Source: Acidimicrobiia bacterium (lineage in GTDB: Bacteria; Actinomycetota; Acidimicrobiia; Spongiisociales; ZC4RG35). Taken from it: DNA of 64,000 nt. Under the pieces are notes generated by a model. The model saw only the letters and a list, made by a program, of their open reading frames with translations. It had not been told where the DNA came from and ran no database searches. Where the stretch lies: contig JANQOU010000006.1 of the NCBI GenBank assembly GCA_028285585.1, forward strand, positions 248,001 to 312,000, given 5' to 3'. Below, one piece after another: positions 3,124 to 22,328 of the stretch (positions are counted from its first letter, which is position 1; each line of letters opens with the position of its first letter). The translations under genes and the position numbers were made by a program.

Positions 3124-3135
3124 CGACCGGCCTCC

Positions 3136-3255
3136 TTGCTATAGCAACCCGTGTCGGTCAGCGACACGCTGTGCACGGCAGACGCGAGCAACGGCCGACA
3201 ACAGCTAGTTACGCGTGCACCGCGTGACGCATAGCGCGACCACTTGCTATAGCAA
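3136..3255. mobile_element. 120-bp non-autonomous inverted-repeat element (MITE-like)
   Basis: Both ends are the 12-bp palindrome TTGCTATAGCAA (3136-3147 and 3244-3255). Inside each palindrome follows a further 30 bases ending in GTGCACG, so the ends form about 42-bp inverted arms. These arms match the 42-bp terminal repeats of the unit at 19209-20250: the left arm shares the AGCGACACGCTGTGCACG end, and the right arm, read inward, shares GTGGTCGCGCT and GTGCACG. The two arms differ from each other at about ten positions, so this copy looks decayed. There is no open reading frame in the roughly 36-base core. It fills almost all of the nuoK-nuoL spacer. No clear target-site duplication is seen. 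Confidence 0.75.
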
Positions 3256-3265
3256 CGATGCACAG

Positions 3266-4101: not shown

Positions 4102-4738
4102 CTGACTGCTTGGAGTCTCTTGCGTCTTGGTCGGGCTCGGGGTCCCAGTCAGCCGGGCCCGGGGTTCCCTGCCACATCTGGACGCCCTCGTAGGCCGCGG
4201 CACCGGAAGACGCGGTGGCACGCAGCCAGCCATCCGCTGTCAGCAGCTCCTCCTGATCTGCGAGCGGGTCGTCCGGGAACATGTGGGGCACGTTGCCCTG
4301 CGTGTCCATCAGGAGGGTCTCCCGGGTGTAGATCGCGTCTTCCCGGTTGGTGGTGGACATCTCAAACAGGTGGGTCATCGTGATTGCCTCGGTGGGGCAG
4401 GCCTCCACGCACAAGCCGCAGAAGATGCAGCGCAACATGTTGATCTCGTAGACGTAGCCGAACCGCTCACCCGGAGACGTGGGAGCTTCCGGATCGTTGT
4501 CCATCCCCCTCACATAGATGCAATGAGCAGGACAGGCGCCGGCGCACAGCTCACAACCGATGCACTTCTCCATGCCGTCCGGATACCGATTGAGCACGTG
4601 GCGCCCGTGGAAACGCTGCGGCTTCTCCCGCATCTCCTTCGGGTACTCGGTCGTCACCACCTCCCGGCCGGTGATGGTGCGCAGCATGGTCCCGCCGGTG
4701 ACCTTGAGGCCCTTGAAGAACTCAGTCAATAGACCCAT
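4085..4738 (-). CDS. nuoI: NADH-quinone oxidoreductase subunit I (two 4Fe-4S clusters)
   Basis: Peripheral-arm subunit carrying the two 4Fe-4S clusters of complex I that lead electrons to NuoB. Both cysteine motifs are present: CIGCELCAGACP and CIFCGLCVEACP. With the ATG at 4738 (MGLLTEFFKGLKVTGG) the protein is 217 residues, longer than the usual 160-180 because of an acidic, probably disordered tail after about residue 165 (ending DWDPEPDQDARDSKQSDDADG). It sits 2 bases after the nuoH stop in the direction of transcription and overlaps nuoJ. Confidence 0.97.
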   Translation of the reverse strand: MGLLTEFFKGLKVTGGTMLRTITGREVVTTEYPKEMREKPQRFHGRHVLNRYPDGMEKCIGCELCAGACPAHCIYVRGMDNDPEAPTSPGERFGYVYEINMLRCIFCGLCVEACPTEAITMTHLFEMSTTNREDAIYTRETLLMDTQGNVPHMFPDDPLADQEELLTADGWLRATASSGAAAYEGVQMWQGTPGPADWDPEPDQDARDSKQSDDADG

Positions 4739-4740
4739 CG

Positions 4741-5808
4741 CTAACTCCAGGGTGCGCCGAATTGACGGAAGCCGATCGCCACGGTCGAAACGATCAGCCA
4801 GACAAGCGCGGCCGGTATCAGCCGCTTCCAGCCCAGCGACATGAGCTGGTCGTACCGAAGCCTGGGCAGTGTGGCCCTGATCCAGAAGAAGAGAAAGACG
4901 ATCACATAGGTCTTGATCAGGAACCAGATGGTTGGCAGCACCGCAGCAACGATCGGCGGGCCAAACGTCGGGCCGTTCCAACCTCCGAGAAAGAGGGTGG
5001 CCGCAATCGCCGACATGGAGAAGATGTTGACGTATTCGGCAAGAAAGAACATGGCAAATCTCATGCCCGAGTACTCGGTGTGAAAGCCGCCGACAATCTC
5101 CTGCTCGGCTTCGACCAGGTCGAAAGGAGCGCGGTTGGTCTCGGCGACTATGGCGATCAAGAAAACCACGAAAGCGGCGACCTGGGGAAAGATGTTCCAT
5201 CTCGGGATGATGCCGCCCCAAGTTCCTTGCTGGGCTTCGACTATCGAAGCAAGGGAGAGGGCGTTCTCACTTCCCAGCGAGGCGGTCCAAAGAACGACGG
5301 CCACCATGGCCAGGCCCATCGCCGCCTCGTAAGAGATCGCTTGCGCCGTGGCTCGGACACCGCCGATCAGCGGGTACTTCGAGCCCGACGACCATCCGGC
5401 GAGCACCACGGCGTACACCGCCATCGACGACATGGCCAGGATGAACAGAAGGCCGATGTGGAGATCGGCGCCTTGCAGAGCCACCTCGTACTCACCAATG
5501 GTGAAAGGTGCTCCCCAGGGCACCATCATGAAGATGAGGAAAGCCGGGATCACTGCAAGGAATGGAGCAAGCAGATACATGCCCAACTCCACCTTGCGTG
5601 GCGTGACAGACTCCTTGAAGAACAGCTTGAGGCCGTCGGCGACAGTTTGCAGAATCCCCCACGGCCCGGCTCGGTTCGGCCCGATACGCGACTGCATATC
5701 CGCGACGATCTTGCGCTCCGCCCAGACGTTGATGACTGTGACCAGCAGCAGAAGGACGAAGGTCATCACGACGCGCAGGACGACGATGGCGATTTCTTCC
5801 CAAGTCAT
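4741..5808 (-). CDS. nuoH: NADH-quinone oxidoreductase subunit H
   Basis: Membrane subunit forming the quinone-entry chamber of complex I; 355 residues, about eight helices. Signature stretches are MQSRIGPNRAGPWGILQ near residue 40 and ETNRAPFDLVEAEQEIVGGF near residue 220, both lining the quinone site in known structures. The ATG at 5808 overlaps the nuoG stop (ATGA). The gene ends 2 bases before nuoI begins. Confidence 0.98.
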   Translation of the reverse strand: MTWEEIAIVVLRVVMTFVLLLLVTVINVWAERKIVADMQSRIGPNRAGPWGILQTVADGLKLFFKESVTPRKVELGMYLLAPFLAVIPAFLIFMMVPWGAPFTIGEYEVALQGADLHIGLLFILAMSSMAVYAVVLAGWSSGSKYPLIGGVRATAQAISYEAAMGLAMVAVVLWTASLGSENALSLASIVEAQQGTWGGIIPRWNIFPQVAAFVVFLIAIVAETNRAPFDLVEAEQEIVGGFHTEYSGMRFAMFFLAEYVNIFSMSAIAATLFLGGWNGPTFGPPIVAAVLPTIWFLIKTYVIVFLFFWIRATLPRLRYDQLMSLGWKRLIPAALVWLIVSTVAIGFRQFGAPWS

Positions 5809-8240: not shown

Positions 8241-9553
8241 GGCGAACCGACCGGCTGAGCTGACTTGAGCGGGCATCCGCCTTGGGACACATGCGACTCC
8301 ACCTCTTCGATGAAGTAGTCCTTGAGAGCCTTGATCGGCGACACTGCCGACGGGCCGAGGGGGCAGATCGTGGTCATCTTCGGAGGCCAGCCAAGGCCGA
8401 TGCTGATCCCGTCTGAGACGTCGACGGCAAGATCGAGATCCACGGCACGTCCCTGCCCGTCTTCGATGCGGCGAAGGATCATCTCTAGCCAGGTCGTGCC
8501 CTCACGACACGGCGTGCACTGCCCACAAGACTCGTGGGCAAAGAAGCGGATCACACGCTCGGCAGCCTCGACCATGCAGGTGGTTTCGTCCATCACGATC
8601 ACCGCACCCGAGCCCAGCATCGAGCCCGCCGCCGCGGTGTCGTCTTTGGTTATCGGGAGGTCGAGATGGTGCTCGGGGACAAACCAAGGCGCCGAGGCCC
8701 CACCGGGGATCCACGCCTTCAGGTCCCTGCCGCCCGGGATCCCCCCGCCGATGTCATAGATCAGCTCGCGCCAGGTGATTCCGTGGGGCAACTCGTAGTT
8801 GCCTGGCTTCTCGACGTGTCCTGACAGCGACATCATGAAAGTGCCGGTGTCCTCGTTGCCGGTGAGCGCCGCATAGTCACCTGAGCCCATGGCGAGAATG
8901 TGAGGGAGATTGGAGACCGTCTCGACGTTGTTGACGATTGTGGGGAGCATGTACAGCCCCTTGGCCGCTGGGAAGTAAGGGGGTTTCAGCCTCGGCTCTC
9001 CGCGGAGACCCTCCAGCGAGTTGATCAGAGCGGTTTCCTCACCGCAGATGTAGGCGCCCCCGCCGAGGTGGACAGTCAGCTCCAGGTCGTAGTCCGATCC
9101 GAAGATTCCCTTGCCGAGGAACCCGTTCGCGTACGCCTCGTCCACTGCCGCCTGCACTCGGCGGGCCGGCTTCGGGTACTCACCCCTGATGTATACAAAG
9201 GCGTGATGCACCTCGTTGGCTATGGCGGTGATGATGATCCCCTCGATCATCTGATGCGGGTCGCGCTCCAGCAGTTGGCGGTCCTTGAAGGTCCCGGGCT
9301 CTGACTCGTCCCCGTTGATCACCAGATACGAGGGCCGCGCCGGAGCCAGGAAGCTCCACTTGAGGCCGGCAGAGAAGGCGGCACCTCCGCGCCCCAGCAA
9401 ACCGGACGCTTTGACCTCCTCGACGAGCTCGTCTCGGGTCATCCCCAACGCGCGGCGCGCCTGGTTGTAGCCATCGGTCGCCTGGTACCGCTCCAGGGTG
9501 TGCGAGTCGGCGGGATGGTCCACCATCCGCTTGGTCACGAGAAGCGTGGTCAT
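8237..9553 (-). CDS. nuoF: NADH-quinone oxidoreductase subunit F (NADH/FMN site)
   Basis: Complex I subunit that oxidises NADH through FMN and passes electrons to its 4Fe-4S cluster (N3). The glycine-rich nucleotide segment GLLGRGGAAFSAGLKW lies near residue 50, the YICGEETALINSLEG segment is in the middle, and the cluster ligands are SCGQCTPCREGT with the fourth cysteine in TICPLG. 438 residues, normal length. It overlaps both neighbours (nuoE and nuoG) by 4 bases, so E, F and G are translationally coupled. Confidence 0.98.
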   Translation of the reverse strand: MTTLLVTKRMVDHPADSHTLERYQATDGYNQARRALGMTRDELVEEVKASGLLGRGGAAFSAGLKWSFLAPARPSYLVINGDESEPGTFKDRQLLERDPHQMIEGIIITAIANEVHHAFVYIRGEYPKPARRVQAAVDEAYANGFLGKGIFGSDYDLELTVHLGGGAYICGEETALINSLEGLRGEPRLKPPYFPAAKGLYMLPTIVNNVETVSNLPHILAMGSGDYAALTGNEDTGTFMMSLSGHVEKPGNYELPHGITWRELIYDIGGGIPGGRDLKAWIPGGASAPWFVPEHHLDLPITKDDTAAAGSMLGSGAVIVMDETTCMVEAAERVIRFFAHESCGQCTPCREGTTWLEMILRRIEDGQGRAVDLDLAVDVSDGISIGLGWPPKMTTICPLGPSAVSPIKALKDYFIEEVESHVSQGGCPLKSAQPVGSP

Positions 9554-10164
9554 TCTTTGCCCACCGTCCCCAGCGGCTGAAACGCCGGATAGGGCCCTAC
9601 GGCGCCCTCCTCCTCGCGTATCCCCCAGTCGAAGCTGCGCGGGCCGCCAAAGAGCTCCTGCATCTCGTCAGTGTTCACCACGGATGGCCGTGCGTCCTTC
9701 AGCCAACCCACCAGATCGCGTGCTTTCTCCGGGGTGACGCCTTCGATCAGCTCATAGTTGACCTGCACGGCGGGAGCCCCGCCACAGGCACCGATGCACT
9801 CGACGTGCTCCACGGAGAGAAGGCCCTCCTCATCGGTCTCACCATGCGGGACACCGGACTCGTCCTCAACTGCGTGCAGCACGTCGTCACCGCCTAGAAG
9901 CATGCAAGAGATTGATGTGCAGCATGAGACGAGGTACTGGCCGGTACGCTCTCTCTTGTACATGGTGTAGAAGCTGGCGACGGATTGGACCTGTGCCGGT
10001 GTGATCCCGCACCACTCGGCGACCTCGGCCATCCCGTCTTCGGTCAGATGCCCATCCTCGGCCATGGCGAGATAGAGGAGAGGCATCACCGCCGATCGCT
10101 TCTCTGGGTAGCGAGAGATGATCTGGCGGGCCCTCTCTTGGGTGGCCTCAGGCCAAGCACTCAA
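9550..10164 (-). CDS. nuoE: NADH-quinone oxidoreductase subunit E (2Fe-2S)
   Basis: Thioredoxin-fold subunit with the 2Fe-2S cluster N1a. Ligands are visible as CTSISC and CIGACGGAP. I place the start at TTG 10164 (product beginning MSAWPEATQERARQIISRYP, 204 residues) because AAGGAG lies about 10 bases upstream; the frame remains open to 10236, but the added residues look non-coding and no ATG is available. This is the first gene downstream of the Rex-operator promoter at 10251-10291, so nuoE to nuoM may form a separately regulated transcript. Confidence 0.93.
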   Translation of the reverse strand: MSAWPEATQERARQIISRYPEKRSAVMPLLYLAMAEDGHLTEDGMAEVAEWCGITPAQVQSVASFYTMYKRERTGQYLVSCCTSISCMLLGGDDVLHAVEDESGVPHGETDEEGLLSVEHVECIGACGGAPAVQVNYELIEGVTPEKARDLVGWLKDARPSVVNTDEMQELFGGPRSFDWGIREEEGAVGPYPAFQPLGTVGKE

Positions 10165-10250
10165 CGGCTCACATCTCCTTTGATCGTCTCTTGCGAGGGA
10201 CCGATTCCATCCTTCACATCGACGATCTGAACGCAACTCACAGCAGGCGG

Positions 10251-10291
10251 AGAATAGGGGTCGCAGGGGGTGCTAGTGAAACCAGTCACAA
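10251..10291 (-). promoter_or_regulatory. Candidate promoter with Rex operator upstream of nuoE
   Basis: On the minus strand 10291-10274 reads TTGTGACTGGTTTCACTA, matching 12 of the 14 fixed positions of the established Rex operator TTGTGAANNNNTTCACAA. A possible -35 (TTCACT, 10280-10275) lies inside this operator and a -10 (TATTCT, 10256-10251) follows after 18 bases, a classical layout for repression. The predicted transcript would have a leader of about 80 bases before nuoE. The operator partly covers the stop of the upstream fusion gene (10286). A rex gene lies at 18595-19200. Binding itself is inferred. Confidence 0.7.
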
Positions 10292-12460
10292 GCTTCCCTG
10301 ATCGATCGAATCAGCCAGGGCCTCAACAAAGAAGTCGATGTCGGAGAGACGCGCGATCAGCGGTGGGCGCAGCTTGAGCACATTGCGATTCCGCCCGGCC
10401 GTGCCGACCAAGACGCCACGTCCCTTCATGTCCTCGAGCAGGCGCTCGACGTCAACGATTTCCTGATCCAGCTCGACACCGACGAGCAGGCCCGTACCAC
10501 GAACATCCACCACTGAAGAGTTCCCCAAGCCGAGCAACCTCTCCTTCAGGTAGGCGCCGACAACGGCCGAGTTGACGACGAGGTCTTCTCTCTCGACGAC
10601 ATCGAGAACGGCAAGGCCGGCGGCACATGCGACCGGGTTCCCACCGAAGGTCGAGAAAAGGCCGGTATCGGCGAGGAAAGGCTCCAACAGGTCGCGGCGG
10701 GTCACCACGACACCCAACGGGAAGCCGTTGCCCACGGGCTTGCCCATGGTGACAAGGTCGGGCTTCAGCCCCTCGCGCTCATGCCCCCACATGACCCCGG
10801 TACGGCCGAACCCGCTCTGAACCTCGTCGGCGACGACGAGCCCGCCCTGCTGCTGCACCACAGCGGCGATCTCACCGAGCGCGCCGTCGGGGACTACCGG
10901 CATCCCCTTGGAAGTGAGCGCAGGATCGACGATGAAACCCGCAACCCGATCGGGCACCTCGGCGTCCTCCAGCCCGACGGTGCTCACATTCGACCCATGC
11001 GGCTCTGTCACCGCGTCGGAAGCTTCGGTCACTCCGTGATACGACCCTTCGACGGCAAGCAGGTTGTCATGGCCGGCTGCGTGCTTGACGATCTGGCCGG
11101 CCACGTCGTTGGCCTCACTACCGGAGTTGACGAACAGGCAGACATCGAGGCCCCCGTCGAGGGTGCCCGTGAGCCGCTCCGCGTACTCGACAACTGACTC
11201 ATACAGGTAGCGGGTGTTGGTGTTGAGTCTCGCCAGTTGCCGTGAGACGGCGTTGACCACCTGGGGATGGTTGTGACCGACCGTTGGGACGTTGTTGTAG
11301 AAGTCGAGATATCGGGACCCGTCGACACCAAACAGATACATCCCGGCACCAGCCACGATCTCCAACGGCTGGGCGTAGAAGTGTGGTGAATGAGGTGTGA
11401 GGTGGGCTTCGCGGCGCTTGGCCAGACCCGTAGACGAGCCGCGACCGAAGCCGAGCAGGCCCCTCAACTCAGAGATGACGTCCTCCCGAGCCGACAGTGC
11501 ATCATCGATCCTGCGCCAGAGACGATCCTGATCGTCCTCGTACGGGTCCTCATCTGGGTACAACGCCACGCGAGCTGCGGCGATGGTGGCGTTCATGGCC
11601 AGCCTCGCCAGCACCAGGTCATACAGGACGTCAACTTCTCCTTCTTCGACCCGGTTGACCGAGTCGAATCCGAGGACGACATCGAGCATCGTCTCCGGGG
11701 AGCCGTCTGGCCGGCCGGAGAGATGGGTGGCCACGGCCAACTCCACCACCAGCGGCGCGAACGCCATGTCGCCGAAGTCGATGATCCCGGTGATCAACGC
11801 CGGGTCATCAGGGTCCACCACCAGGTTCCCGGTGTGGGCGTCCTGATGAATCACCTGATGCCGAAGCAACCTGCATGCAGGGACGGTGTGGTCCCTGGCC
11901 CTCTCCAAGATCAACTCGACGTTGGCCCTCGCCGTGCCGTCAGGGATGTGCTCGGCATGTTCGAGAAGACGAGGCGCTCCCATGAGATTCCAGGGGTGGT
12001 CCTGGTCGGCTGCCGGGTGGAAGAAGCTCGACAGAGCCTTGTCGAGCCGAGCGAGCACTGATCCCGTGTTGTGTCTCAATTGCGGTGTGTCGTGCTCGGC
12101 ACGGTTGGCCACATCGCCGTCGAGATAGGACATGAGACGATGGGTGTAGGTGACACCTTCGTCGACGACTGTGCCTGTGTCCTGACCACCGAGCCCTTGC
12201 AAGGCGCGGGGCACCGGAAGGACCGGATCGACCGCCTCGATATGACGCAGTGCCCTGATCTGAAGGTCGATCACCTCGGCCGGCTCGTTTTGGTTGCACA
12301 CCTTGAACAGGTATGTGTCGTCTGCAGCATCGACCTTGATGTTCTGGTCTCTCTCGCTTTCGAACGAGGTGAGATCACCGCGCAGCCCATACGTCTCGGC
12401 AAGCACCGACTCCACCAATTCCAGGGACAGATCAGGCTTGTTGCGTTGGAGGAACTTCAC
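10286..12460 (-). CDS. Fused APH-type kinase and class III PLP enzyme (phospho-lyase type)
   Basis: 724-residue two-domain enzyme. Residues 1 to about 330 are an aminoglycoside-phosphotransferase-fold kinase: catalytic loop HQDAHTGN (205-212) and metal-binding IDFGD (227-231). From about 345 on is a class III aminotransferase-fold PLP domain with NSGSEAND, DEVQSGFGRTG and the Schiff-base lysine in MGKPVGNG (Lys574). The GKPxGNG form resembles ethanolamine-phosphate and phosphohydroxylysine phospho-lyases (AGXT2L family), whose substrates are made by APH-fold kinases. I infer a bifunctional enzyme that phosphorylates an amino alcohol and eliminates the phosphate; the substrate is unknown. It sits inside the nuo cluster, 18 bases after nuoD. 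Confidence 0.88.
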   Translation of the reverse strand: MKFLQRNKPDLSLELVESVLAETYGLRGDLTSFESERDQNIKVDAADDTYLFKVCNQNEPAEVIDLQIRALRHIEAVDPVLPVPRALQGLGGQDTGTVVDEGVTYTHRLMSYLDGDVANRAEHDTPQLRHNTGSVLARLDKALSSFFHPAADQDHPWNLMGAPRLLEHAEHIPDGTARANVELILERARDHTVPACRLLRHQVIHQDAHTGNLVVDPDDPALITGIIDFGDMAFAPLVVELAVATHLSGRPDGSPETMLDVVLGFDSVNRVEEGEVDVLYDLVLARLAMNATIAAARVALYPDEDPYEDDQDRLWRRIDDALSAREDVISELRGLLGFGRGSSTGLAKRREAHLTPHSPHFYAQPLEIVAGAGMYLFGVDGSRYLDFYNNVPTVGHNHPQVVNAVSRQLARLNTNTRYLYESVVEYAERLTGTLDGGLDVCLFVNSGSEANDVAGQIVKHAAGHDNLLAVEGSYHGVTEASDAVTEPHGSNVSTVGLEDAEVPDRVAGFIVDPALTSKGMPVVPDGALGEIAAVVQQQGGLVVADEVQSGFGRTGVMWGHEREGLKPDLVTMGKPVGNGFPLGVVVTRRDLLEPFLADTGLFSTFGGNPVACAAGLAVLDVVEREDLVVNSAVVGAYLKERLLGLGNSSVVDVRGTGLLVGVELDQEIVDVERLLEDMKGRGVLVGTAGRNRNVLKLRPPLIARLSDIDFFVEALADSIDQGSL

Positions 12461-12478
12461 CGGGTTCCTCCGAGGTGC

Positions 12479-13843
12479 TCAGCGATCCACATCACCCATG
12501 ACCGGGTCCATCGAGGCAATGGTGGCGATGGTGTCGGCCATGAGGGAGTCGGCCATGGTTATGGGAAGGGCCTGAAGGTTGTAGAACGACGGCGCCCGGG
12601 TGTGCATCCGGTAAGGGTTGGCCTCGCCGTCCGAAACCATGTAGCAACCCAGCTCACCACGAGGTGACTCGACCGCGACATATGTCTCGCCGGCGGGCAC
12701 CTTGAACCCCTCGGTAAAGAGCTTGAAATGGTGGATCAGGGCCTCCATCGACTCATCGATTCGAGCCCGCGGCGGTGGCGTGACCTTCCGGTCGTCGATC
12801 CGATAGTCGCCTTTCGGCATCCGATCCATGGCCTGCTCGACGATCTTCAGCGATTCGATGATCTCGAGCACCCGCATCCGGTATCTGTCGTAGACGTCGC
12901 CGTTCTCGCCCACCGGGACGTCGAACTCGTAGTTCTCTATCCCCGAGTACGGGAAAGCCTTCCGCAGGTCCCAGTTCACCCCGGTCGCCCGGAGAATCGG
13001 CCCGGTGATCGAGAAGGCCTTGGCCTCTTCTTGGGTGATGACGCCCACTCCCTGAGTTCGGGAGAGCCAGATCGGATTCTCCTTGAGCAAGTCGTCGTAC
13101 TGCGCAAGACGCACAGGCAGGTCGGCGAGGATGGCGGCCACGTCGTCTTTCCAACCTGGAGGAAGATCCGCGGCAACGCCGCCCGGGCGGATGTAGTTGT
13201 GGTTCATCCGCAGCCCCGTCGTCTTCTCGAAGAAGGCCAGGATCGACTCCCGCTCGCGGAAGCCATACAACATCATTGAGAGGGCTCCGATGTCCATGCC
13301 GTTGGTGGCAAGTGCCACCAGGTGCGACGAGATGCGGTTCAGCTCCGTCATCAGCACCCGGATTGCCGCGGCACGCTCCGGAACCTCGATGTCGAGGAGA
13401 CGCTCGACGGCAAGGGAGTAGGCAAGCTCGCCGTGAAGCGGAGCCAAGTAGTCCATCCGGGTGACATTGGTTGGTCCCTGGCCGAAGGTGAGCTGCTCGG
13501 CAGTCTTCTCCATCCCGGTGTGGAGGTATCCGATGATGGGCTTCGTCCGCCGGATCACCTCGCCTTCCATCTCGATCTGAAGCCGGAGGACACCGTGTGT
13601 CGACGGGTGCTGGGGGCCCATGTTGACGATCATCCGCTCGTCATCTTCGACGTCGTCGTCGAACAGGTAGTCGTCATCGATCACCGAGCCGAGCTGTTTG
13701 GCAAGCCGCTCATCGGTCTCTTCGACGAACATCTCCTGCTGACCCTCGTCGGTGGGCTGGAATTGAGGCTCTTCGGTTCCGGCAACCCATAGGTCGACGG
13801 TCTCGGTGGCTTCTGTCGCGTCGATGGTCTTCTCGTCCGTCAT
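12479..13843 (-). CDS. nuoD: NADH-quinone oxidoreductase subunit D
   Basis: 49-kDa-type subunit that forms the quinone site with NuoB. The family signature GPQHPSTHGVLR is near residue 75, followed by GYLHTGMEKTAEQ and RMDYLAPLHGE. With ATG 13843 (MTDEKTIDATEATETVDL) the protein is 454 residues; it carries an unusual N-terminal extension of about 65 very acidic residues before the conserved core. The start is 4 bases after the nuoC stop. The frame is open 18 codons further upstream, into nuoC. Confidence 0.96.
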   Translation of the reverse strand: MTDEKTIDATEATETVDLWVAGTEEPQFQPTDEGQQEMFVEETDERLAKQLGSVIDDDYLFDDDVEDDERMIVNMGPQHPSTHGVLRLQIEMEGEVIRRTKPIIGYLHTGMEKTAEQLTFGQGPTNVTRMDYLAPLHGELAYSLAVERLLDIEVPERAAAIRVLMTELNRISSHLVALATNGMDIGALSMMLYGFRERESILAFFEKTTGLRMNHNYIRPGGVAADLPPGWKDDVAAILADLPVRLAQYDDLLKENPIWLSRTQGVGVITQEEAKAFSITGPILRATGVNWDLRKAFPYSGIENYEFDVPVGENGDVYDRYRMRVLEIIESLKIVEQAMDRMPKGDYRIDDRKVTPPPRARIDESMEALIHHFKLFTEGFKVPAGETYVAVESPRGELGCYMVSDGEANPYRMHTRAPSFYNLQALPITMADSLMADTIATIASMDPVMGDVDR

Positions 13844-13847
13844 CTCA

Positions 13848-14342
13848 TCAGACCTTGTGAGATTCCTTGAACTGAACCGGGACCGATCCGACGCCAAAGT
13901 CCTTGCGGAGAGGATGGCCTTCCCAGTCGTCGGGCATCAAGATCCGAGTGAGGTCGGGGTGGCCTTCGAAGCTGATCCCAAACATGTCGTACGCCTCACG
14001 CTCGCCGAACCCCGCGCCGGGCCAGATCGAGGTCAGTGAGTCGACAGTCGGGTCTTTTCTGCCCAAAGCCGTGGTTATGCGGAGGCGAACTCCGTGCTCC
14101 ATCGAGAGCAGGTTCGCCACGACCTCGAAACGCTCTGGGCGCTGCCGCATCCAGTCGACAGCAGTGACATCGGAACAGAAGTCGAACCCGGCACCCTTTG
14201 CGGCCTCGGCAAAAGGCTTCCACAACTCGGCAGGCATGCTGGCCACGTCCTGGCCATGTGACTTCAACCAGGTCACGTCCTCGAACTGGTCGGCGAGAGC
14301 CTGCAATACCTCAGGAAGAACCATCTCTCCGTTCGGATTCAT
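13848..14342 (-). CDS. nuoC: NADH-quinone oxidoreductase subunit C
   Basis: 30-kDa-type peripheral subunit of complex I, 164 residues, not fused to NuoD. The conserved segment SIWPGAGFGEREAYDMFGI with the following PDDWEGHPLRKDF is present near the C-terminus, as expected. Starts at ATG 14342, directly beside the 38-bp tandem repeat that separates it from nuoB. Confidence 0.96.
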   Translation of the reverse strand: MNPNGEMVLPEVLQALADQFEDVTWLKSHGQDVASMPAELWKPFAEAAKGAGFDFCSDVTAVDWMRQRPERFEVVANLLSMEHGVRLRITTALGRKDPTVDSLTSIWPGAGFGEREAYDMFGISFEGHPDLTRILMPDDWEGHPLRKDFGVGSVPVQFKESHKV

Positions 14343-14426
14343 CGCACGATTCCAATCTCATTGGGAAAATGCGATCTCATCGCACGATTCCAATCTCATT
14401 GGGAAAATGCGATCTCATCGCACGAT
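14340..14426. repeat. 38-bp tandem repeat with nested palindromes between nuoB and nuoC
   Basis: Two identical 38-bp units (14340-14377 and 14378-14415) are followed by a partial third (14416-14426). Each unit contains CCAATCTCATTGG (14352-14364, 14390-14402), and TGCGATCTCATCGCA spans each unit junction (14370-14384, 14408-14422). Both are inverted repeats around the same central CTC. The array begins at the nuoC start codon and ends in the nuoB stop codon region, so the unit incorporates the nuoB/nuoC junction. It may be a slippage duplication or give short hairpins in the mRNA that affect nuoC translation. Confidence 0.9.
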
Positions 14427-14885
14427 CTCCCCGGACATGATCTTGTCGTGCAAGGTCAGGACCCCATGCATGAGGCTCTGCGGCCCCGGAGGGCAACCCG
14501 GCACGTAGATGTCGACCGGCACGATCTGATCCACACCCTGGACCAGTGCGTAGTTGTTGAACATGCCACCCGACGAGGCGCAAGCACCCATCGAGACCAC
14601 CCATTTGGGATCTGGCATCTGGTCGTAGACCTGACGGAGCACCGGCGCCATCTTCTGGCTGACCCGGCCGGCCACGATCATCAGATCCGCCTGTCGCGGA
14701 GAGGCCCGGAAGACCTCCATGCCAAAACGCGCCAGGTCGTAGTGGCCAGCGCCCGTCGCCATCATCTCGATGGCGCAGCAGGCGAGGCCGAAGGTGGCGG
14801 GGAACATCGATCGGGTTCGAGCCCAATTGGCCGCCTTCTCAACGGTGGTCATCAGCAGGTTGCCCGGAGGTGTCGTGTTGGCCAC
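14415..14885 (-). CDS. nuoB: NADH-quinone oxidoreductase subunit B
   Basis: 20-kDa-type subunit holding the terminal 4Fe-4S cluster N2. Cysteine ligands are visible in [15 protein letters not shown]-adjacent [10 protein letters not shown] and VPGCPPGP. I start at GTG 14885 (product [20 protein letters not shown], 156 residues) because it overlaps the nuoA stop (TAGTG); longer readings run into nuoA. The stop lies within the tandem repeat at 14340-14426. Confidence 0.95.
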
Positions 14886-15292
14886 TAGGCCGCCTCTTGC
14901 AACTCTTCGCCCGTGTACCGGGCGCGTCGCTTGACGTTCCAATCGAGAGCCCCCCGTTTCCAGACGTAGGCGAGCGTCTCCAGCACGAAGGCGGTGAATA
15001 TCAGGATCGCGGCCACTCCCCACCAGCCGAGATCGGTCCAGATGGACGCCCATGCGAAGAGGAAGATGATCTCCACGTCAAAGATGACGAACAGCATCGC
15101 CACCAGATAGAACCTCACCGGGAATCGCTGGGCGGGCTCCACCTCGGGCACGATCCCGCACTCGTAGGGGTCGAGCTTCTCAGGGGTGGGCCGATCCGGG
15201 CTGAAGAACCTGGAGACGACCAGAGAAACAGCCACGAAGATCGCAGCCAGGCCCAGCATGATGGCTATTGGCAGATAGTCGGCCAGCGTCAC
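14885..15292 (-). CDS. nuoA: NADH-quinone oxidoreductase subunit A
   Basis: First gene of the complex I cluster; a small membrane subunit of 135 residues with three helices. The family segment [11 protein letters not shown] with its conserved cysteine and the [20 protein letters not shown] stretch are present. The start is GTG 15292, with no ribosome site but a -10 box TAAGCT (15305-15300) 7 bases upstream, suggesting a leaderless transcript. Confidence 0.96.
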
Positions 15293-15354
15293 GATTTTGA
15301 GCTTAGGACAGCCTCTGACAGTCGGGGTAATTCCAACGCCTATCGTGCCCGGCG
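15293..15354. promoter_or_regulatory. Divergent promoter region of nuoA and the desulfurase-like gene
   Basis: The 62 bases between the two divergent start codons carry a -10 box for each direction: TAAGCT for nuoA (minus strand, 15305-15300, 7 bases from GTG) and TATCGT for the plus-strand gene (15341-15346, 8 bases from ATG). No convincing -35 boxes and no Rex operator are visible here. Confidence 0.5.
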
Positions 15355-16572
15355 ATGTTCGACGTCACCTCTATCAGATCCCAATTCCCGGCCTTGGGCC
15401 GCATCGACGACGGCCTGCCTGCCGCATACCTCGACGGGCCCGGCGGAACTCAGACTCCACAACGTGTGATCGACGCCATGTCGACGGCGCTGAGCGAGGG
15501 GGTGTCGAATCTCGGCGGTGGGTTTCCTCCCTCCGACCTCGCCGGTGACATCACCGAAGGGGCTCGGCGAGCGATGGCTGATCTGTACAACTGCCACCCC
15601 GGCGAGGTTGTCTTCGGCCAGAACATGACCAGCCTGACCTTTGCACTCAGCCACGCCCTAGCTGCGACCTGGCAGGAGGGCGATGCCATTGTCCTCACCG
15701 ACATCGACCACGACGCCAACTTCACCCCTTGGGCCCGGGCCGCCGATGAGCGAGGAGTCGACGTGCGCGTGGCCAGGTTCGACCCGGAGACTGGCCTGCT
15801 CGACCCGACGTCGGTCACCGAGCTGATCGACGAGAAGGTGCGGTTGGTAGCGGTTGCCTACTCGTCGAATGCACTGGGAACTGTCGTCGACCTCGAGCCG
15901 ATAGTCGAAGCAGCGCACTCGACGGGAGCGCTGGTGTTCGTCGATGCGGTGCACGCCGGGCCCCATCATCTCGTCGACGTGCAAGAGCTCGGCTGCGACT
16001 TCCTCGCCTCCGCCGTCTACAAGTTCTTCGGGCCGCACACCGGGGTTCTCTACGGACGAGCCGACCTCCTGGCATCACTGGATGCATACAAGGTCAGGCC
16101 GGCGCCGTCGGATCCACCCGGCAAGTGGGAAACCGGCACGCAGAGCTACGAGTCGCTGGCGGGTGTCACCGCCGCCGTCGACTACGTCGCCTCACTCGGC
16201 TCATCTGGCAACACCAGGCGGGAGTCATTGGCAGATGCGTACCGCGAGATCGAGCAGCACGAGCGCTCGCTCGGCGAGCGATTCATCTCCGGCGTCCATG
16301 AGATCAGCGGTGCGAAGTTGTGGGGTGTTCAGCAGATGAGTCGGCAGCGATGCGCCACCTTTGCGGTGACCATCGACGGGGCTTCGCCCAAGGATGTGAC
16401 CGCCCATCTCGCATCTCGCTCGATCTACGCCTGGGCCGGGCACTACTACGCCGTCAACCTGATGGAGCGGCTCGGCGTTCTGGACAAAGGAGGCTTGGTG
16501 AGAATCGGCTTTGTCCACTACAACACCGCCGAGGAGGTCGACCGCTGCATGGAGGCTCTCGCCGAGATCTAG
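15355..16572 (+). CDS. Cysteine desulfurase-like class V aminotransferase
   Basis: 405-residue PLP-dependent enzyme of the class V fold. The PLP lysine is in ASAVYKFFGPHTG near residue 222, preceded by FVDAVHAGPH with the pyridine-binding aspartate. Overall layout matches the cysteine desulfurase-like subgroup that is related to SufS/Csd but whose members have not all been tested; the active-site cysteine loop of SufS is not evident, so sulfur transfer is not assured. Probably cytosolic. Transcribed away from nuoA and convergent with the HAD gene 7 bases later. No isc or suf genes are nearby. Confidence 0.85.
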   Translation: MFDVTSIRSQFPALGRIDDGLPAAYLDGPGGTQTPQRVIDAMSTALSEGVSNLGGGFPPSDLAGDITEGARRAMADLYNCHPGEVVFGQNMTSLTFALSHALAATWQEGDAIVLTDIDHDANFTPWARAADERGVDVRVARFDPETGLLDPTSVTELIDEKVRLVAVAYSSNALGTVVDLEPIVEAAHSTGALVFVDAVHAGPHHLVDVQELGCDFLASAVYKFFGPHTGVLYGRADLLASLDAYKVRPAPSDPPGKWETGTQSYESLAGVTAAVDYVASLGSSGNTRRESLADAYREIEQHERSLGERFISGVHEISGAKLWGVQQMSRQRCATFAVTIDGASPKDVTAHLASRSIYAWAGHYYAVNLMERLGVLDKGGLVRIGFVHYNTAEEVDRCMEALAEI

Positions 16573-16579
16573 GTGAGGA

Positions 16580-17248
16580 TCAGTGGATGAGAAGGTCGGC
16601 GAGGTCGGCGATATCTCCCACAACCACGTCCGGCATGTCTGCCGGAATGCTCCACACCGCGCCGGGCCGTTTGACGAACACCGTTCCGGCGTCTGCAGCC
16701 GTCGCACCGGCACAGTCCCAATCATGGGCGGCGACCAGCGTCAAGTCCCCAATGGGGATGCCCATGAGCTGGGCTGCGTGGTGATAGGTGGCTGGATCGG
16801 GCTTGAACCGCCTCACCTCTTCAACCGAGATCACCCGGCGCAAGAACTGTGTGAGGCCTGCGTTCTCCATCTGGTCTCTGGCCACAACGGAGGAGCTGTT
16901 GGTCAGCGCGACCATCTCGAACCCGGCCTCGTGCAGGCGGCGCAACCCGTCGGGCACGTCCGGGTGCGGCGGCAAGCTCATCATCTCTCCAACCACATCC
17001 ACCGCATCCTCACCCCTGAGAGAAAGGCCGCGTTTGACGGCAACGGTGAGAAGAGCTTCGACTCCTATGTCGCCAAACGGCCTGTAGTTGTCCATCGCGT
17101 TGGCAACCAAGGAGCCATGGAGCATCCTGGCGAACCACTCCCCTACAGGCGGGTCGCCACCGAAGATCTGCTCGAATCGAGCCTTGATCGGGTCGAGGCT
17201 GAGCAAAGTCTCGTTGACATCGAAGGCGATGACCGGTGGCTTGTTCAC
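16580..17248 (-). CDS. HAD-superfamily hydrolase, 2-haloacid dehalogenase type
   Basis: 222-residue cytosolic hydrolase. Motif I is FDVNETLL with the nucleophile aspartate near residue 9, motif II is TNSSS, motif III is in RFKPDPATYH, and the AAHDWDCAGA stretch is the fourth region; the sequence pattern is that of type II 2-haloacid dehalogenases. The enzyme would displace halide or phosphate through an aspartyl ester; the real substrate is unknown. I chose GTG 17248 (MNKPPVIAFDVNETLL); upstream codons in frame do not resemble the family. A -10-like TACCAT lies 9 bases upstream. Confidence 0.85.
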   Translation of the reverse strand: MNKPPVIAFDVNETLLSLDPIKARFEQIFGGDPPVGEWFARMLHGSLVANAMDNYRPFGDIGVEALLTVAVKRGLSLRGEDAVDVVGEMMSLPPHPDVPDGLRRLHEAGFEMVALTNSSSVVARDQMENAGLTQFLRRVISVEEVRRFKPDPATYHHAAQLMGIPIGDLTLVAAHDWDCAGATAADAGTVFVKRPGAVWSIPADMPDVVVGDIADLADLLIH

Positions 17249-17291
17249 ACACCTCAAATGGTATCGGGCAAGCTCTCCCGATGTCGGCTGG

Positions 17292-18533
17292 TCAGGCGAC
17301 GGGCAAGGTCCTGACCACGGCGGCAATCGAGTCGTACACCCGCTCACCCATCTGCTTCTCGTCTTCGTCGAGAAGGTTTGCCATCACCTTGAGGGTCCAC
17401 TCCATCAGCGGGCGATTGCGAAGGCCGGTGTGGGCGAGAGTCCGCATCACAGAGGGGTAGCCGATCAGCTTCACGAAGATCCGGGCCATCTTGTAATACA
17501 GCCCGTACTCGTCCTGAAGACGCTGCGGGTAGCGATGGAGGACGCCGTGGTCGCCGGAGCCGAGAGCTTGACCCACGTACTCGGCGGCGATGCGGCCGGT
17601 CTCGTAGGCATAAGAGATGCCCTCGCCGTTCCAAGGGTTGATGGCGCCGGCGGCGTCACCGATCGTGATCCAGTTGGCACCGACGAGCGGGCCCTTGGAG
17701 AAGGACATGGTCAGCTTGCCGCCCATCGGCTTGCTGAGACGGGACTCCTCGCTCAACCCCCAATGATCGGGAGCTCCGTGATCCACATAGTCGTTCATCA
17801 TGTGGGTGGTGTTGACGTGCTTCCAACGCTTGAAGGTCGAGAGGAGGCCCACCCCGACGTTGACCGTCCCGTCACCCAGGGGAAAGACCCAGCCGTAACC
17901 GGGCATCGTCGCCCCTGTCGAGTCCCGCAAGTCGAGCTGGCTTTCGAGGAAGGGGTCTGTCGACATCTCCGACGAGTAGTAACCACGGGCAGCCATACCC
18001 ATCGGGTAGTCGCGGCGCCGCTCGGTCCCCAGCTCACGGCCGAAACGATTCATGGAGCCGTCGGCGATGATGGTGATGTCGGGATTTATTGTCTCTGACC
18101 CATCACCGTTGGCCAGCGCCACGGAGGTGAGGAGGCCCTCCTCGATGACCGGGGCGGCGGTGGTCTTCTCCCTGACCTTGACGCCTTCTTTCTCGGCGAG
18201 ACGGGCCACCTGCTCGTCGAGATCGCTGCGTCTGATCACACCGCCCCAATTGGGGAAACGGCTGTGGTCGGGCCAGGTCATCTCCAGCATCAAGTCGTCA
18301 CCTGCGTATGAGCGAAGCCCGGTGATCTTGTGGAACTCGGGCACATCGAAGTCGAAGCCCATGTCGTCGAGCTGAAGGATCGCCCGTGGGGTCAGGCCGT
18401 CGCCACAGGTCTTCTCGCGGGGGTACTCCTTCTTCTCGATGAGAGTCACATCGTGACCGTCGCGTGCGAGCCAATAGGCGGCGGCCGACCCTGCCGGGCC
18501 ACCTCCCACCACGAGAACGGACTTCGAAGCCAT
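17292..18533 (-). CDS. Geranylgeranyl-reductase-family FAD oxidoreductase
   Basis: 413-residue flavoprotein. The N-terminal FAD-binding loop is VVGGGPAGSAAAYWLA, followed by the family motif REKTCGDGLTP near residue 42 and the second FAD contact TIGDAAGAINPWNGEGI. This family saturates isoprenoid double bonds in lipids, chlorophyll tails or menaquinone (MenJ). Given the surrounding respiratory genes, reduction of the menaquinone side chain is a reasonable inference, not shown. Start at ATG 18533 (MASKSVLVVGGGP). Confidence 0.87.
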   Translation of the reverse strand: MASKSVLVVGGGPAGSAAAYWLARDGHDVTLIEKKEYPREKTCGDGLTPRAILQLDDMGFDFDVPEFHKITGLRSYAGDDLMLEMTWPDHSRFPNWGGVIRRSDLDEQVARLAEKEGVKVREKTTAAPVIEEGLLTSVALANGDGSETINPDITIIADGSMNRFGRELGTERRRDYPMGMAARGYYSSEMSTDPFLESQLDLRDSTGATMPGYGWVFPLGDGTVNVGVGLLSTFKRWKHVNTTHMMNDYVDHGAPDHWGLSEESRLSKPMGGKLTMSFSKGPLVGANWITIGDAAGAINPWNGEGISYAYETGRIAAEYVGQALGSGDHGVLHRYPQRLQDEYGLYYKMARIFVKLIGYPSVMRTLAHTGLRNRPLMEWTLKVMANLLDEDEKQMGERVYDSIAAVVRTLPVA

Positions 18534-18594
18534 GTCATCCAGAGAGTAGAAGGCCGATGTCGGTAGAAGGAACGACGGATGTAACGTCGGCGGC

Positions 18595-19200
18595 ATGTCG
18601 GAGTTGTCCCGAGCCACTGTCTCGCGTCTGCCCCGCTACCTGCGCCTGATCGAAGACTCTGCCGACTCGCGCACCGTCAGCTCCGAGGCTTTGGCGGCAG
18701 CAGCAGGGGTCAACGCGGCCAACGTGCGCAGAGACCTGTCTGACCTCGGGTTCCAGGGCACTCGCGGGGTCGGCTACTCGGCACCTGCCTTGCGCGACCG
18801 CATTCGCCGCGAGTTGGGCATCGAACGCAGGCGCAAGGTGGCCATCATCGGTGCCGGCAATCTGGGAACGGCCCTGGCGAGATACTCGGGCTTGAGCAAG
18901 CGCGGCTTCGACGTCGTCGCTATCTATGACGTGGACGCCGGACGAATCGGCCAGCTGATCGGTGACGTCAAGATCCAAGACTTGGAGGAGATGCCGTCCG
19001 ACTGCTCGTTCGGGTGCTTCGACATGGCCATCCTGGCGGTGCCGGCAAGCTCGGCACAGCCGGTGACGGACGACTTGGTGGCGGCAGGAATCGCCTCCAT
19101 CCTCAACTTCGCCCCGATACGTGTGACCGTGCCCGACACGGTGGCCGTCCGGCAAGTCGACTTGTCGACCGAGCTCCAGATCCTCAGCTACTACGGCTAA
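18595..19200 (+). CDS. rex: Redox-sensing transcriptional repressor Rex
   Basis: 201 residues, normal Rex length. An N-terminal winged helix (residues 1-80; VNAANVRRDLSDLGFQGTRGVGY is the recognition region) is followed by a Rossmann domain with IIGAGNLGTALA for NADH binding. Rex dimers leave DNA when the NADH/NAD+ ratio rises, so they derepress respiratory genes. The Rex-like operator at 10274-10291 in front of nuoE is the obvious target in this window. A -10 TAACGT (18582-18587) ends 7 bases before the ATG, suggesting a leaderless mRNA. The stop is followed within 8 bases by a mobile unit. Confidence 0.96.
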   Translation: MSELSRATVSRLPRYLRLIEDSADSRTVSSEALAAAAGVNAANVRRDLSDLGFQGTRGVGYSAPALRDRIRRELGIERRRKVAIIGAGNLGTALARYSGLSKRGFDVVAIYDVDAGRIGQLIGDVKIQDLEEMPSDCSFGCFDMAILAVPASSAQPVTDDLVAAGIASILNFAPIRVTVPDTVAVRQVDLSTELQILSYYG

Positions 19201-19208
19201 CGGCCTCG

Positions 19209-19250
19209 TTGCTATAGCAACTGGTCGCGCTGAGCGACACGCTGTGCACG
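19209..19250 (+). repeat. Left terminal inverted repeat of the DUF559 unit
   Basis: 42 bases: the 12-bp palindrome TTGCTATAGCAA (19209-19220), then a hairpin-prone stretch containing GTCGCGCTGAGCGAC, ending GCTGTGCACG. Matches the right repeat at 41 of 42 positions. Confidence 0.9.
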
Positions 19251-19299
19251 CGCAATCGACAGTCTTGAATTGCCCTTCGGCACGTTGCATCTTTGGCTC

Positions 19300-20247
19300 A
19301 TGGGTGATTTCAATCTCCTGGATCGTTTCGCAGCAAACCAACACGGGGCTTTCAACCTCTCGCAGATTCGTCAGGCCGGGTTTGACCGGAGCGCCACCTA
19401 TCGGCTGACCGGCAACCGTCGCTGGCTTCAGCTCGACCATCAGGTGTATGCGCTCGCATCGGCACCATCGACGTGGGAGCAACAGATGTGGGCGGCTCTT
19501 CTCAGCCGACCGCAAGCGGTGGTGGGTGGGAGGTCAGCGGCATCTCTGCACAAGCTTCGTGGCTTTGGCAAGTGGAAACCGGAGATCGTCGTCCCCGGCA
19601 GCGGAAACGCTCGATCAGGGATCGCGACCGTGATCAGAGCCGAGCACTTTCACGAACTGGAGACCGTCGACATCGAAGGCTTCGAGACAACCACCGTTGC
19701 CGAAACCCTGGTCACGCTCGCAGGTCGAGTCGGCCCACCGTTCCTGACATCAGTGGCCGAAGACTCGCTTCTCTCCCACAAGCTCGATATGGACTCTCTG
19801 GTCACGCTGATTCAACGTGAAGACGGCAGACGCCGTCGTGGGATCAACGTCTTGAGGCGATTCGTTGAAGAACGATCCGAAAGTGCACCTTCGATCGACG
19901 CCAGCTATCTCGAAGGTCTACTCGAGCACGTGTTGGCTGAGGGTGATCTGCCGGAGTGGATACGCGAGCATCCCTTCACTCTCAGAGGCCAACCCTCTCG
20001 AGTCGATGTCTTCATTCCTGAGTGGAAAGTGGTCGTCGAGGCCGACGGGAGAACGTGGCACGCAAAAGTGGAGGCTTTCGAGACTGACCGGCAACGTGAC
20101 AACGAGCTGGCTTCGCGCGGTATCCAGGTGATTCGATTCTCTTACGGAGATTTGGCCGAGCGACCTGCAGCCTGCCTACGCATCATCACCGAAACTGGGC
20201 GAGTCCGCCGTGCACAGCGTGTCGCTGAGCGCGACCAGTTGCTATAG
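19300..20247 (+). CDS. AbiEi-type N-terminal domain plus DUF559 (Vsr-like) endonuclease domain
   Basis: About 315 residues from ATG 19300 (MGDFNLLDRFAANQHGAFNL); a TTG at 19270 would add ten. The N-terminus (about 1-60) looks like the winged-helix of type IV AbiEi antitoxins. The last 110 residues are a PD-(D/E)XK-like DUF559 domain: RVDVFIPEWKVVVEADG, TWH and DRQRDNELASRG with IQVIRFSYGDL are its hallmarks. Such proteins are common as lone genes in actinobacteria and have no assigned role. Here the C-terminus is encoded by the terminal repeat. Inference: a nicking or cutting enzyme for spread of its own unit; a defence role is the alternative. Confidence 0.8.
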   Translation: MGDFNLLDRFAANQHGAFNLSQIRQAGFDRSATYRLTGNRRWLQLDHQVYALASAPSTWEQQMWAALLSRPQAVVGGRSAASLHKLRGFGKWKPEIVVPGSGNARSGIATVIRAEHFHELETVDIEGFETTTVAETLVTLAGRVGPPFLTSVAEDSLLSHKLDMDSLVTLIQREDGRRRRGINVLRRFVEERSESAPSIDASYLEGLLEHVLAEGDLPEWIREHPFTLRGQPSRVDVFIPEWKVVVEADGRTWHAKVEAFETDRQRDNELASRGIQVIRFSYGDLAERPAACLRIITETGRVRRAQRVAERDQLL

Positions 20248-20250
20248 CAA
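20209..20250 (-). repeat. Right terminal inverted repeat of the DUF559 unit
   Basis: Inverted copy of the left repeat, ending in TTGCTATAGCAA (20239-20250). It encodes the last 13 codons of the nuclease and its TAG stop (20245-20247) lies within the palindrome. Confidence 0.9.
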
Positions 20251-20258
20251 GAGGGCCG

Positions 20259-20618
20259 TTACGTGGCTTCTTGGGCTTCTTCGTATTGGTGGAGGGCGAC
20301 CAGGAACACCAGGAAGAGGACCGTGCTCACCAACAGGTAGGTGATGGGGATGATCCTTATCTCCAGGGCGTTGAGTCCCTCGATGTTGTCTGGCTTGGGA
20401 CCGCGCGGGGCGTAGATGACGAACAGCAGAGAAGTGATCGCCAGCCAGCCGAAAGTGGCAGCACCGGTGACCAGGAACCCGAGCCGCTTGCCGAGGTTGG
20501 TGTAGTTGAACAGGTAGATGGACCCGTAGAACAGCGCAACCGACACCGCGGTGAGCAGGATCCCGGTTACGAAGAGGTTTGATGAGAGCAGGCCTCTAAA
20601 AAGCTCACGGAAGAACAT
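20259..20618 (-). CDS. Small membrane protein of the bc-complex operon, function unknown
   Basis: 119 residues with three predicted transmembrane helices (around 14-36, 47-68 and 90-110) and an acidic C-terminus (HQYEEAQEAT). No family recognised. It is the last gene of the minus-strand bc operon, starting 3 bases after the diheme cytochrome c stop, so an accessory or assembly subunit is likely. The stop TAA falls in the sequence that flanks the DUF559 unit. Confidence 0.75.
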   Translation of the reverse strand: MFFRELFRGLLSSNLFVTGILLTAVSVALFYGSIYLFNYTNLGKRLGFLVTGAATFGWLAITSLLFVIYAPRGPKPDNIEGLNALEIRIIPITYLLVSTVLFLVFLVALHQYEEAQEAT

Positions 20619-20621
20619 TGG

Positions 20622-22328
20622 CTAGCCGTCTCCCTTCAAGTTGCCGCTGCGCAGGTACGCAGCCAGAAGCTCGATGTCGTCCTGTGACAGGACCGCCCCG
20701 AATCCGGGCATCCGGCCCGACCCGAAACCGTTGAGCCCGTAAGGAGTCTCTTCCTCTGAGCCCTTGATGATGAAGTCGACCAACAGATCCACCTCTGTCT
20801 CCGGATCGGTTGGTGCGTCACCGAACTGGACAACGGGACGGCCATCCCAGAGAGCTGGGCCGAAGCCACCTGAGCCGACCTCGAGGGTGTAGGGGGTACC
20901 GGCGGGAAAGCTTGCCGTGTGGCATCTGGCGCAGCTGGCGTTGAACAGGGCAACGGCCCTCTCCGCTTCTTCGGTCGAGACACCCATGGATGCAGCTACG
21001 CCTTCGATGTCAATCGTCCACGCCCCCGCCTCCTCAGCCATGAGAAGGAACTCATAACCCGCCTGCTCCTGGGGCCTGATCCGGGTCACGTTCTCCACCG
21101 TCACCGCGGTGTTGATCGACGTTGACTCCCAACCGCCGACGAGCGTGTTGGCCGACTCGAGGTCGGTGACACCGGTCACGGACTCGGCGTTGGTCGGATC
21201 GAACGTGACTATGCCGATTGCACTGGGAACGGTGACCGTGGAAGCCTCGGCCATCTGACCGCTGATCTGGGTCTCCGCCTGATCCGAGAGGCCGTCACCG
21301 TCCGTGTCCGGGTTCTCGTCGGTTATCTCATCACCGGCGATGATCGCTTCGATTGCCGTCAGATTGAAAGTGAGAGCTGGGTCCTTCTCGACCGCCGCCG
21401 TGAGCACGGCGACTGCCTCCTCGGCGAGACCGGCGTCCGCGACTTCAGGATCCAAAGCAATTGGGTCGACCTCGCGATAGAACTCGAACGCAGCCACCGA
21501 CATCTCAGAAAGCTGCTGCTCGGCGATGTCGGAGAGACCGTCGGCGTCGGTGTCGATGCCATCGCCGGCGGAGTCGAGAATCGCACGGCCTGAGGCGGCC
21601 AGCGGCCCGATGAAGTCTGCGTCCTCAGGTGCCTGGTCGATGACGGCCAGCACTTGTGCCTGGTCGATGATGGCCCGCTGCACGGTCGTCTCGCCGTTCT
21701 CCAGCCGCGTCAGCTGCTCGTCGAGCTTGCCGGGCAGACGATCCACCGCCTCCTGCTGACTGATCTGAATCGTGGCCAGGTAATTGACGACGTCTTCTAC
21801 CTGAGCGGCATTCATTGGGCCACCACCGTCGAGGCCCCAGCCCGGCATCGGCGTGTTGCCCCGGCCGAACGTGACCCAGAAGTTGACCTCGTCGGGCGTG
21901 TAGCGATAGAGAATGTCATCAAGAGCAGGTGCTGCCCAGGAGACGGCAACTCCAGACCTGGGCTCAACGAAGGCCGCGGAGCCACCGACACCAAGCGGGC
22001 CGTGGCAGTCGAAGCATCCGAATTCCTCGACCAGGTGCTCGCCACGCTCGATCGAAGCGTGTGAGAACTCCTCGACGAACCCTTCTTGACGATTGGTCTC
22101 ACCGAGGAAGTACAACGGCAGCGAGATGGCGAGGAACGCAGATGCGGCGATGGCTACCTTCTGACCGCTCTCCAGGCGCCGAGTCTCCAGGTGCTGGTCG
22201 TCGACCCCGGGACGGAGGTTGGGCGATATCTCCTCGCCACCGCGGTTGCGCAACGCGGAGACCAACATCAGGCCCAGCCAGACGATGCCGGCGACGACCG
22301 CCAAGACAGTGATGATGTCTGTCGTCAT
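20622..22328 (-). CDS. Membrane-anchored diheme cytochrome c of the bc complex, with calcium-loop motifs
   Basis: 568 residues. An N-terminal helix (about 7-26) and a second near 58-75 anchor it; two c-type heme sites follow, CFDCH near 105 and CARCH near 466, each in its own cytochrome c domain. The roughly 300-residue interval contains two calcium-binding-type loops, DTDADGLSD (about 258) and DTDGDGLSD (about 340), as in thrombospondin type 3 repeats. Role: take electrons from Rieske and pass them to an oxidase. In typical actinobacteria QcrC is a smaller diheme protein without such an insert. Coding sequence sits 3 bases after the Rieske gene. Confidence 0.85.
   Translation of the reverse strand: MTTDIITVLAVVAGIVWLGLMLVSALRNRGGEEISPNLRPGVDDQHLETRRLESGQKVAIAASAFLAISLPLYFLGETNRQEGFVEEFSHASIERGEHLVEEFGCFDCHGPLGVGGSAAFVEPRSGVAVSWAAPALDDILYRYTPDEVNFWVTFGRGNTPMPGWGLDGGGPMNAAQVEDVVNYLATIQISQQEAVDRLPGKLDEQLTRLENGETTVQRAIIDQAQVLAVIDQAPEDADFIGPLAASGRAILDSAGDGIDTDADGLSDIAEQQLSEMSVAAFEFYREVDPIALDPEVADAGLAEEAVAVLTAAVEKDPALTFNLTAIEAIIAGDEITDENPDTDGDGLSDQAETQISGQMAEASTVTVPSAIGIVTFDPTNAESVTGVTDLESANTLVGGWESTSINTAVTVENVTRIRPQEQAGYEFLLMAEEAGAWTIDIEGVAASMGVSTEEAERAVALFNASCARCHTASFPAGTPYTLEVGSGGFGPALWDGRPVVQFGDAPTDPETEVDLLVDFIIKGSEEETPYGLNGFGSGRMPGFGAVLSQDDIELLAAYLRSGNLKGDG

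Follow-up and report, generated by a model that had tools for sequence, protein, structure and literature searches.

A lone AbiEi-DUF559 gene in an Acidimicrobiia genome, together with the short palindromes that bracket it and recur across the genome, probably forms a REPIN/RAYT-like, two-part repeat system whose protein joins an AbiEi DNA-binding domain to an EDxHD/Vsr-type nuclease. With slightly less confidence, we favour the broader reading that a new class of mobile-repeat enzyme is represented by the AbiEi-DUF559 family, in which the nuclease would bind and cut its own palindromes and drive REPIN-like repeats across Actinomycetota without tyrosine transposases. Lone DUF559 genes with an AbiEi domain were present in 102 of the 296 actinobacterial genomes sampled, often several per genome. 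Such genes are common in actinobacteria and, to our knowledge, have no assigned role.

The gene lies in the window, the 64-kb stretch of DNA analysed here (Table 1), where it is set between two intact convergent genes with the rex stop codon only 8 nt from its left end. Its two arms are inverted repeats of each other, identical at all but one of 42 nt, and the match extends to 53 nt at 92% when the outer bases are included (19198-19250 and 20209-20261). Each arm opens with the palindrome TTGCTATAGCAA, and the TAG stop of the open reading frame falls inside the right-hand copy. ATG at 19300 is a likelier start than TTG at 19270, the start of the longest open reading frame. Inspection of the locus revealed no intron or interrupted target gene around the gene, no known transposase within the gene-plus-ends unit, and no adjoining AbiEii nucleotidyltransferase toxin gene, the neighbours being rex and a membrane protein gene beside bc-complex genes. 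Positions 2500-21000 of the window gave no Rfam family match.

Table 1. Features of the gene unit, its neighbours and a related mini-element, in window coordinates (T, TTGCTATAGCAA; h, 23-nt hairpin segment with a GTCGC..GCGAC stem; G, GTGCAC)
Feature	Position	Strand	Evidence or remark
Mini-element of 120 bp: two inverted T-h-G ends, 36-nt spacer, in an intergenic gap	3136..3255		Second copy at G000:C4:230558-230677 (L016)
rex (redox-sensing repressor), upstream neighbour	18595..19200	+	ORF; rex gap empty in 20 relatives
Left end: T + h + G	19209..19250	+	Inverted repeat of 20209-20250, one mismatch; copies dispersed in genome
AbiEi-DUF559 gene	19300..20247	+	Pfam/PADLOC matches, structure model, conserved catalytic residues
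Right end: inverted copy of left end, holding the gene's TAG stop (20245-20247)	20209..20250	-	Inverted-repeat match
Convergent downstream neighbour: 119-aa membrane protein adjoining bc-complex genes	20259..20618	-	ORF; orthologues directly 3' of rex in relatives

This arrangement stands out from its surroundings. Among exact inverted 14-mers within 1.6 kb of each other, the ends of the gene are the sole multi-piece pair in the window, and block-shuffled sequence yields 0-1 hits. The arms score 43.5, against at most 12.5 in 198 sliding controls of the same geometry in the same window. The first-pass annotation had described one AbiEi/DUF559-type gene within 42-bp inverted repeats differing at one position, each arm beginning with a palindrome and the gene's stop lying in the terminal palindrome. 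The repeat match and controls bear this out. Its remark that no known transposase is present also holds for the unit, whose protein matches DUF559/AbiEi, and its view that gene and ends form one unit is upheld. The ends recur throughout the genome.

Two further repeats were observed in the window. Positions 14339-14426, by NADH-dehydrogenase subunit genes, hold a perfect 38-bp tandem repeat of 2.3 copies with an internal imperfect palindrome, and this repeat is absent from the other loci fetched. At 54085-54117, a perfect 15-bp inverted repeat with a 3-nt centre stands directly 5' of a start codon (GGCACCAGTGTAGCA GTT TGCTACACTGGTGCC ATGG), and looks like an autoregulatory operator.

A search for other copies of the ends, suggested in the first-pass annotation, found 60 copies of TTGCTATAGCAA in the 2.59-Mb genome, where the reversed control pattern has 0, and 0 copies in 59 relatives. 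Of 50 listed positions of TTGCTATAGCAA, 32 pair up at a spacing of exactly 35 nt. These paired copies make up a 47-bp unit, T-h-T, whose predicted hairpin is far stabler than those of shuffles (z -6.8); other copies carry T-h-G ends, as at the gene, or form T-h-T-h-G mosaics. The dispersed units are extragenic hairpins or palindrome doublets, often situated shortly 3' of stop codons. Conserved bases (CGAG) run on beyond the palindrome, so the true ends of the units are uncertain. The two copies of the 120-bp mini-element differ at only 2 of 120 bases. They also share about 11 nt on the left and about 14 nt on the right beyond their palindromes, indicating a copied unit larger than the span from palindrome to palindrome. 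Elsewhere in the genome, an LLM-type oxidoreductase gene is closely flanked by two inverted T-h-G ends (L024 1496-2627; G000:C6:59495-60626); it is possibly cargo, or the ends may be two independent nearby units.

The same layout recurs well beyond this locus, as the first-pass annotation had anticipated for other lone DUF559 genes. Homologues were found in 41 of 60 relatives (E 1e-10). Of the 69 order-level homologues with both flanks, 52 have flanking inverted repeats when judged against a null of 3000 cross-paired flanks (p<0.03; about 2 expected). Across the phylum, 18 of 47 homologues have them (p<0.01; 0.5 expected). At these thresholds, the remaining 17 and 29, respectively, have no significant flanking repeat. 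A contig search with query A2 returned 46 named MAG loci, mostly from Acidimicrobiia, and searches with queries A1 and P0001 gave no matches. The palindromes fall into distinct families, including GAACCCWGGGTTC, AACCTNAGGTT, CGAGTGTGCATC.., TTCTGTG..CACAGAA and ATTGCTGAGAAA, and in many loci the left arm stops a near-constant distance, about 43 nt, short of the start codon. Palindrome families unrelated to one another share a doublet spacing of 35-36 nt and a tandem period of 71-73 nt (G025, G038, G051, G050, G037, G044), which hints at a fixed protein footprint. As a separate observation, ends belonging to palindrome families that are otherwise unrelated (L159, L161, L168, L093, L111, L107 and others) repeatedly carry a motif near (C/A)AGAACGG at their edge, possibly a shared cleavage or end signal.

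Further, each palindrome tends to be abundant where a gene is flanked by it. The three genomes with a CGAGTGTGCATC-flanked gene, and no others, reach 28, 43 and 23 copies of this palindrome; a congener where the search found no such gene has 4, and each of the other 56 genomes has at most 2. AACCTNAGGTT has 8-60 copies in five positive genomes and a median of 1 elsewhere. All ten genomes whose gene carries GAACCCWGGGTTC hold 8-49 copies of it; seven other genomes also have at least 7. Some genomes (G001, G021, G034) contain many GAACCCWGGGTTC copies and no detected gene flanked by exact GAACCCWGGGTTC, a mismatch that fragmented genomes or variant flanks may explain. The enrichment of genomes for the palindrome flanking their own gene gives Fisher p values of 2.6e-7, 2.3e-5 and 2.9e-5 for three families, which are optimistic because the genomes share ancestry and their independence is overstated. 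In genus g22, dispersed units are similar from end to end to those flanking the gene.

This specificity extends to paralogues within a single genome. The genome studied here has two further AbiEi-DUF559 genes, 40% and 29% identical to the gene in the window. The closer of these carries on both sides a 41-bp palindrome unrelated in sequence to TTGCTATAGCAA, found at 9 places in the genome. The arms of this palindrome hardly vary from place to place, unlike its 3-nt centre. The more distant one has weaker flanking repeats with 25-nt ends, and its palindrome is low-copy (AACCTNAGGTT, 2 copies in this genome). Different paralogues of one genome carry different palindromes, like the REPIN families found beside different RAYTs (PMC3116915).

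The protein matches DUF559, with AbiEi_4 below Pfam's cut-off (Pfam/PADLOC). Its structure model (pLDDT 89, pTM 0.63) places an AbiEi fold with a winged helix at residues ~1-192 (6y8q, Z 12.8; Rv2827c, 1zel, Z 10.2), followed at residues ~199-304 by a predicted EDxHD/Vsr-type nuclease (3hrl, Z 13.0; I-Bth0305I, 3r3p, Z 11.5; Vsr with DNA, 1cw0, Z 10.0). A weak profile match also links it to I-Bth0305I (3r3p, E 0.014). The residues E204, D235, E246, D248, H253 and D262 (P0001 numbering) are kept in 96-100% of family members, so the nuclease appears to be maintained in an active state by selection. AbiEi and Rv2827c repress their own promoters through inverted repeats to which they bind (PMC7319586), and I-Bth0305I forms a dimer on a site of almost 60 bp (PMC3943268). 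Both behaviours would fit a dimer seated on a symmetric 45-60-bp unit.

The evidence, which is comparative throughout, shows the ends, their dispersal, their co-occurrence with cognate genes across genomes, the variation of units at orthologous sites and the conserved catalytic residues, with the fold coming from a model; binding, dimerisation, cleavage and copying are what we infer. The best reading is that a Vsr-like nuclease works on the palindromes of its own family. A mostly stationary gene encodes the AbiEi-type DNA-binding domain and the EDxHD/Vsr-type nuclease, and the 45-75-bp palindromic units dispersed in its genome belong to the same family as those flanking it. Probably acting as a dimer, the protein would use its AbiEi winged helix to recognise the paired symmetric half-sites of its palindrome family. 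It might next nick or cut, with its nuclease domain, at the unit or at a hairpin formed by it, after which repair or replication would copy the unit in trans to other intergenic sites, often just 3' of stop codons. Occasionally, the whole gene with both ends might be copied to a new place.

The main rival remains a regulator on dispersed operators, which we regard as unlikely. Here the protein would be a DNA-binding regulator (an AbiEi-like autoregulator) or a hairpin-processing enzyme, and the palindromes would be operators or 3'-end signals, spread by slippage, recombination or another transposase and retained for the protein's action. The promoter repression by AbiEi and Rv2827c described above would suit such a role, as would the regular placement of left arms upstream of the start codon and the frequent position of units just behind stop codons. 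However, a regulator does not readily account for the second arm 3' of the gene or for the nuclease residues, which rank with the best conserved of the whole protein. Nor does it readily explain 20-60 copies per genome where a transposase search with PF01797 finds no Y1/RAYT gene.

Our preferred reading, a nuclease that disperses its palindromes, also agrees with how the units vary between close relatives. At one orthologous site, congeners have one versus two units (L245/L259, a 68-nt difference), and a partial unit is present in one congener and absent from another (L248 in G050 versus L277 in G037). Comparisons within genus g22 show units gained or multiplied, with no clean duplication. It is the 45-75-bp palindromic unit that multiplies. 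Many of the genes, by comparison of loci, keep the same neighbours in different genera (L026, L048, L049, L074, L075 and others), and this positional conservation indicates that they are mostly static.

The gene itself nevertheless appears to have moved at times. Comparison of empty sites, proposed in the first-pass annotation, showed that the gap beside rex is empty in 20 relatives; the gene that fills it here is from one clade, and the gene that fills it in G012 is from an unrelated clade with other ends. Since the gap was filled twice independently, genes have been inserted at times. Flanks too diverged to align between genera hide the exact empty site and any target duplication. Movement of the gene thus looks rare but real. 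These data bear on the proposal, made in the first-pass annotation, of a self-mobilising single-gene element, in which the nuclease would mobilise the gene encoding it, bounded by palindromic ends, with the short copies being non-autonomous, MITE-like derivatives. The rex gap favours it, together with the near-identical copies of the mini-element and the different neighbours of the closest homologues (L045/L046). Yet no genome examined contains a near-identical multi-copy gene, within-genome paralogues are deeply diverged, and several loci are conserved across genera. Occasional movement survives from that proposal; an active transposon, given one copy, diverged paralogues and loci kept across genera, does not, and we consider the self-mobilising element as a whole improbable.

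That the ends are simply transcription terminators, or inverted repeats that flank a lone gene by chance, is very improbable. The units can fold into strong hairpins, often at 3' ends, but one of the arms is upstream of the gene, the two arms are near-identical to each other, specific to their family and dispersed, controls never reach the observed scores, and genome-specific copy numbers (60 versus 0 in relatives) exclude this as the sole cause. RAYT-driven repeats were considered and rejected, there being no PF01797 in the 60 genomes.

If the proposed system is correct, common, unexplained AbiEi-DUF559 genes would be tied to cognate DNA repeats, and each such protein would gain a testable predicted target sequence. 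Short palindromes would then have a second way of populating genomes, one that relies on a non-homologous enzyme, and the proteins themselves would be compact nucleases whose specificities are readable and already diversified in nature.

Among known systems, AbiEi antitoxins of type IV toxin-antitoxin systems share the fold of residues 1-192 and bind inverted repeats (PMC7319586), whereas here no AbiEii toxin gene adjoins and the fusion partner is a nuclease. EDxHD homing endonucleases (I-Bth0305I) and Vsr have the nuclease fold in common with the protein, whose active-site residues are intact. Unlike homing endonucleases, however, it invades no intron or host gene, its N-terminal part is AbiEi-like, and its targets are presumed to be the dispersed palindromes of the element to which it belongs. 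In our incomplete coverage of the literature, we found no paper linking AbiEi with DUF559, or a DUF559 enzyme with repeats, and papers naming DUF559, palindrome and repeat together concerned other subjects. We count the system as new because the enzyme defines a mobile-element class and the papers found link none of these enzymes to repeats.

The closest parallels are repeat systems built around tyrosine transposases. TIRtrons (TIRYT; PMC3733652) likewise consist of a single gene between long terminal inverted repeats, some forming dispersed families, but their enzyme is a tyrosine (Y1) transposase and not a DUF559 nuclease. REP/REPIN sequences with their RAYTs (REP-associated tyrosine transposases), or REPtrons (PMC3116915, PMC3733652), come nearer still. 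They and the system described here both comprise short extragenic palindromes, often doublets, near stop codons; in both, the cognate gene is flanked by the same dispersed repeats, different repeat families stand beside different paralogues, and the gene is single-copy and mostly vertically inherited. In an unsystematic reading, no GTAG (or CGTC) tag like that of REPtrons was noticed in the units here. The REPtron enzyme is a Y1 tyrosine transposase, in contrast to the EDxHD/Vsr-type nuclease with an AbiEi domain described here, and no Y1 transposase (PF01797) was found in this genome or its 59 relatives, in a search that does give matches in control genomes. The system is therefore not a member of the REPIN/RAYT group, its enzyme being unrelated; by architecture alone, it would sit among the REPtrons.
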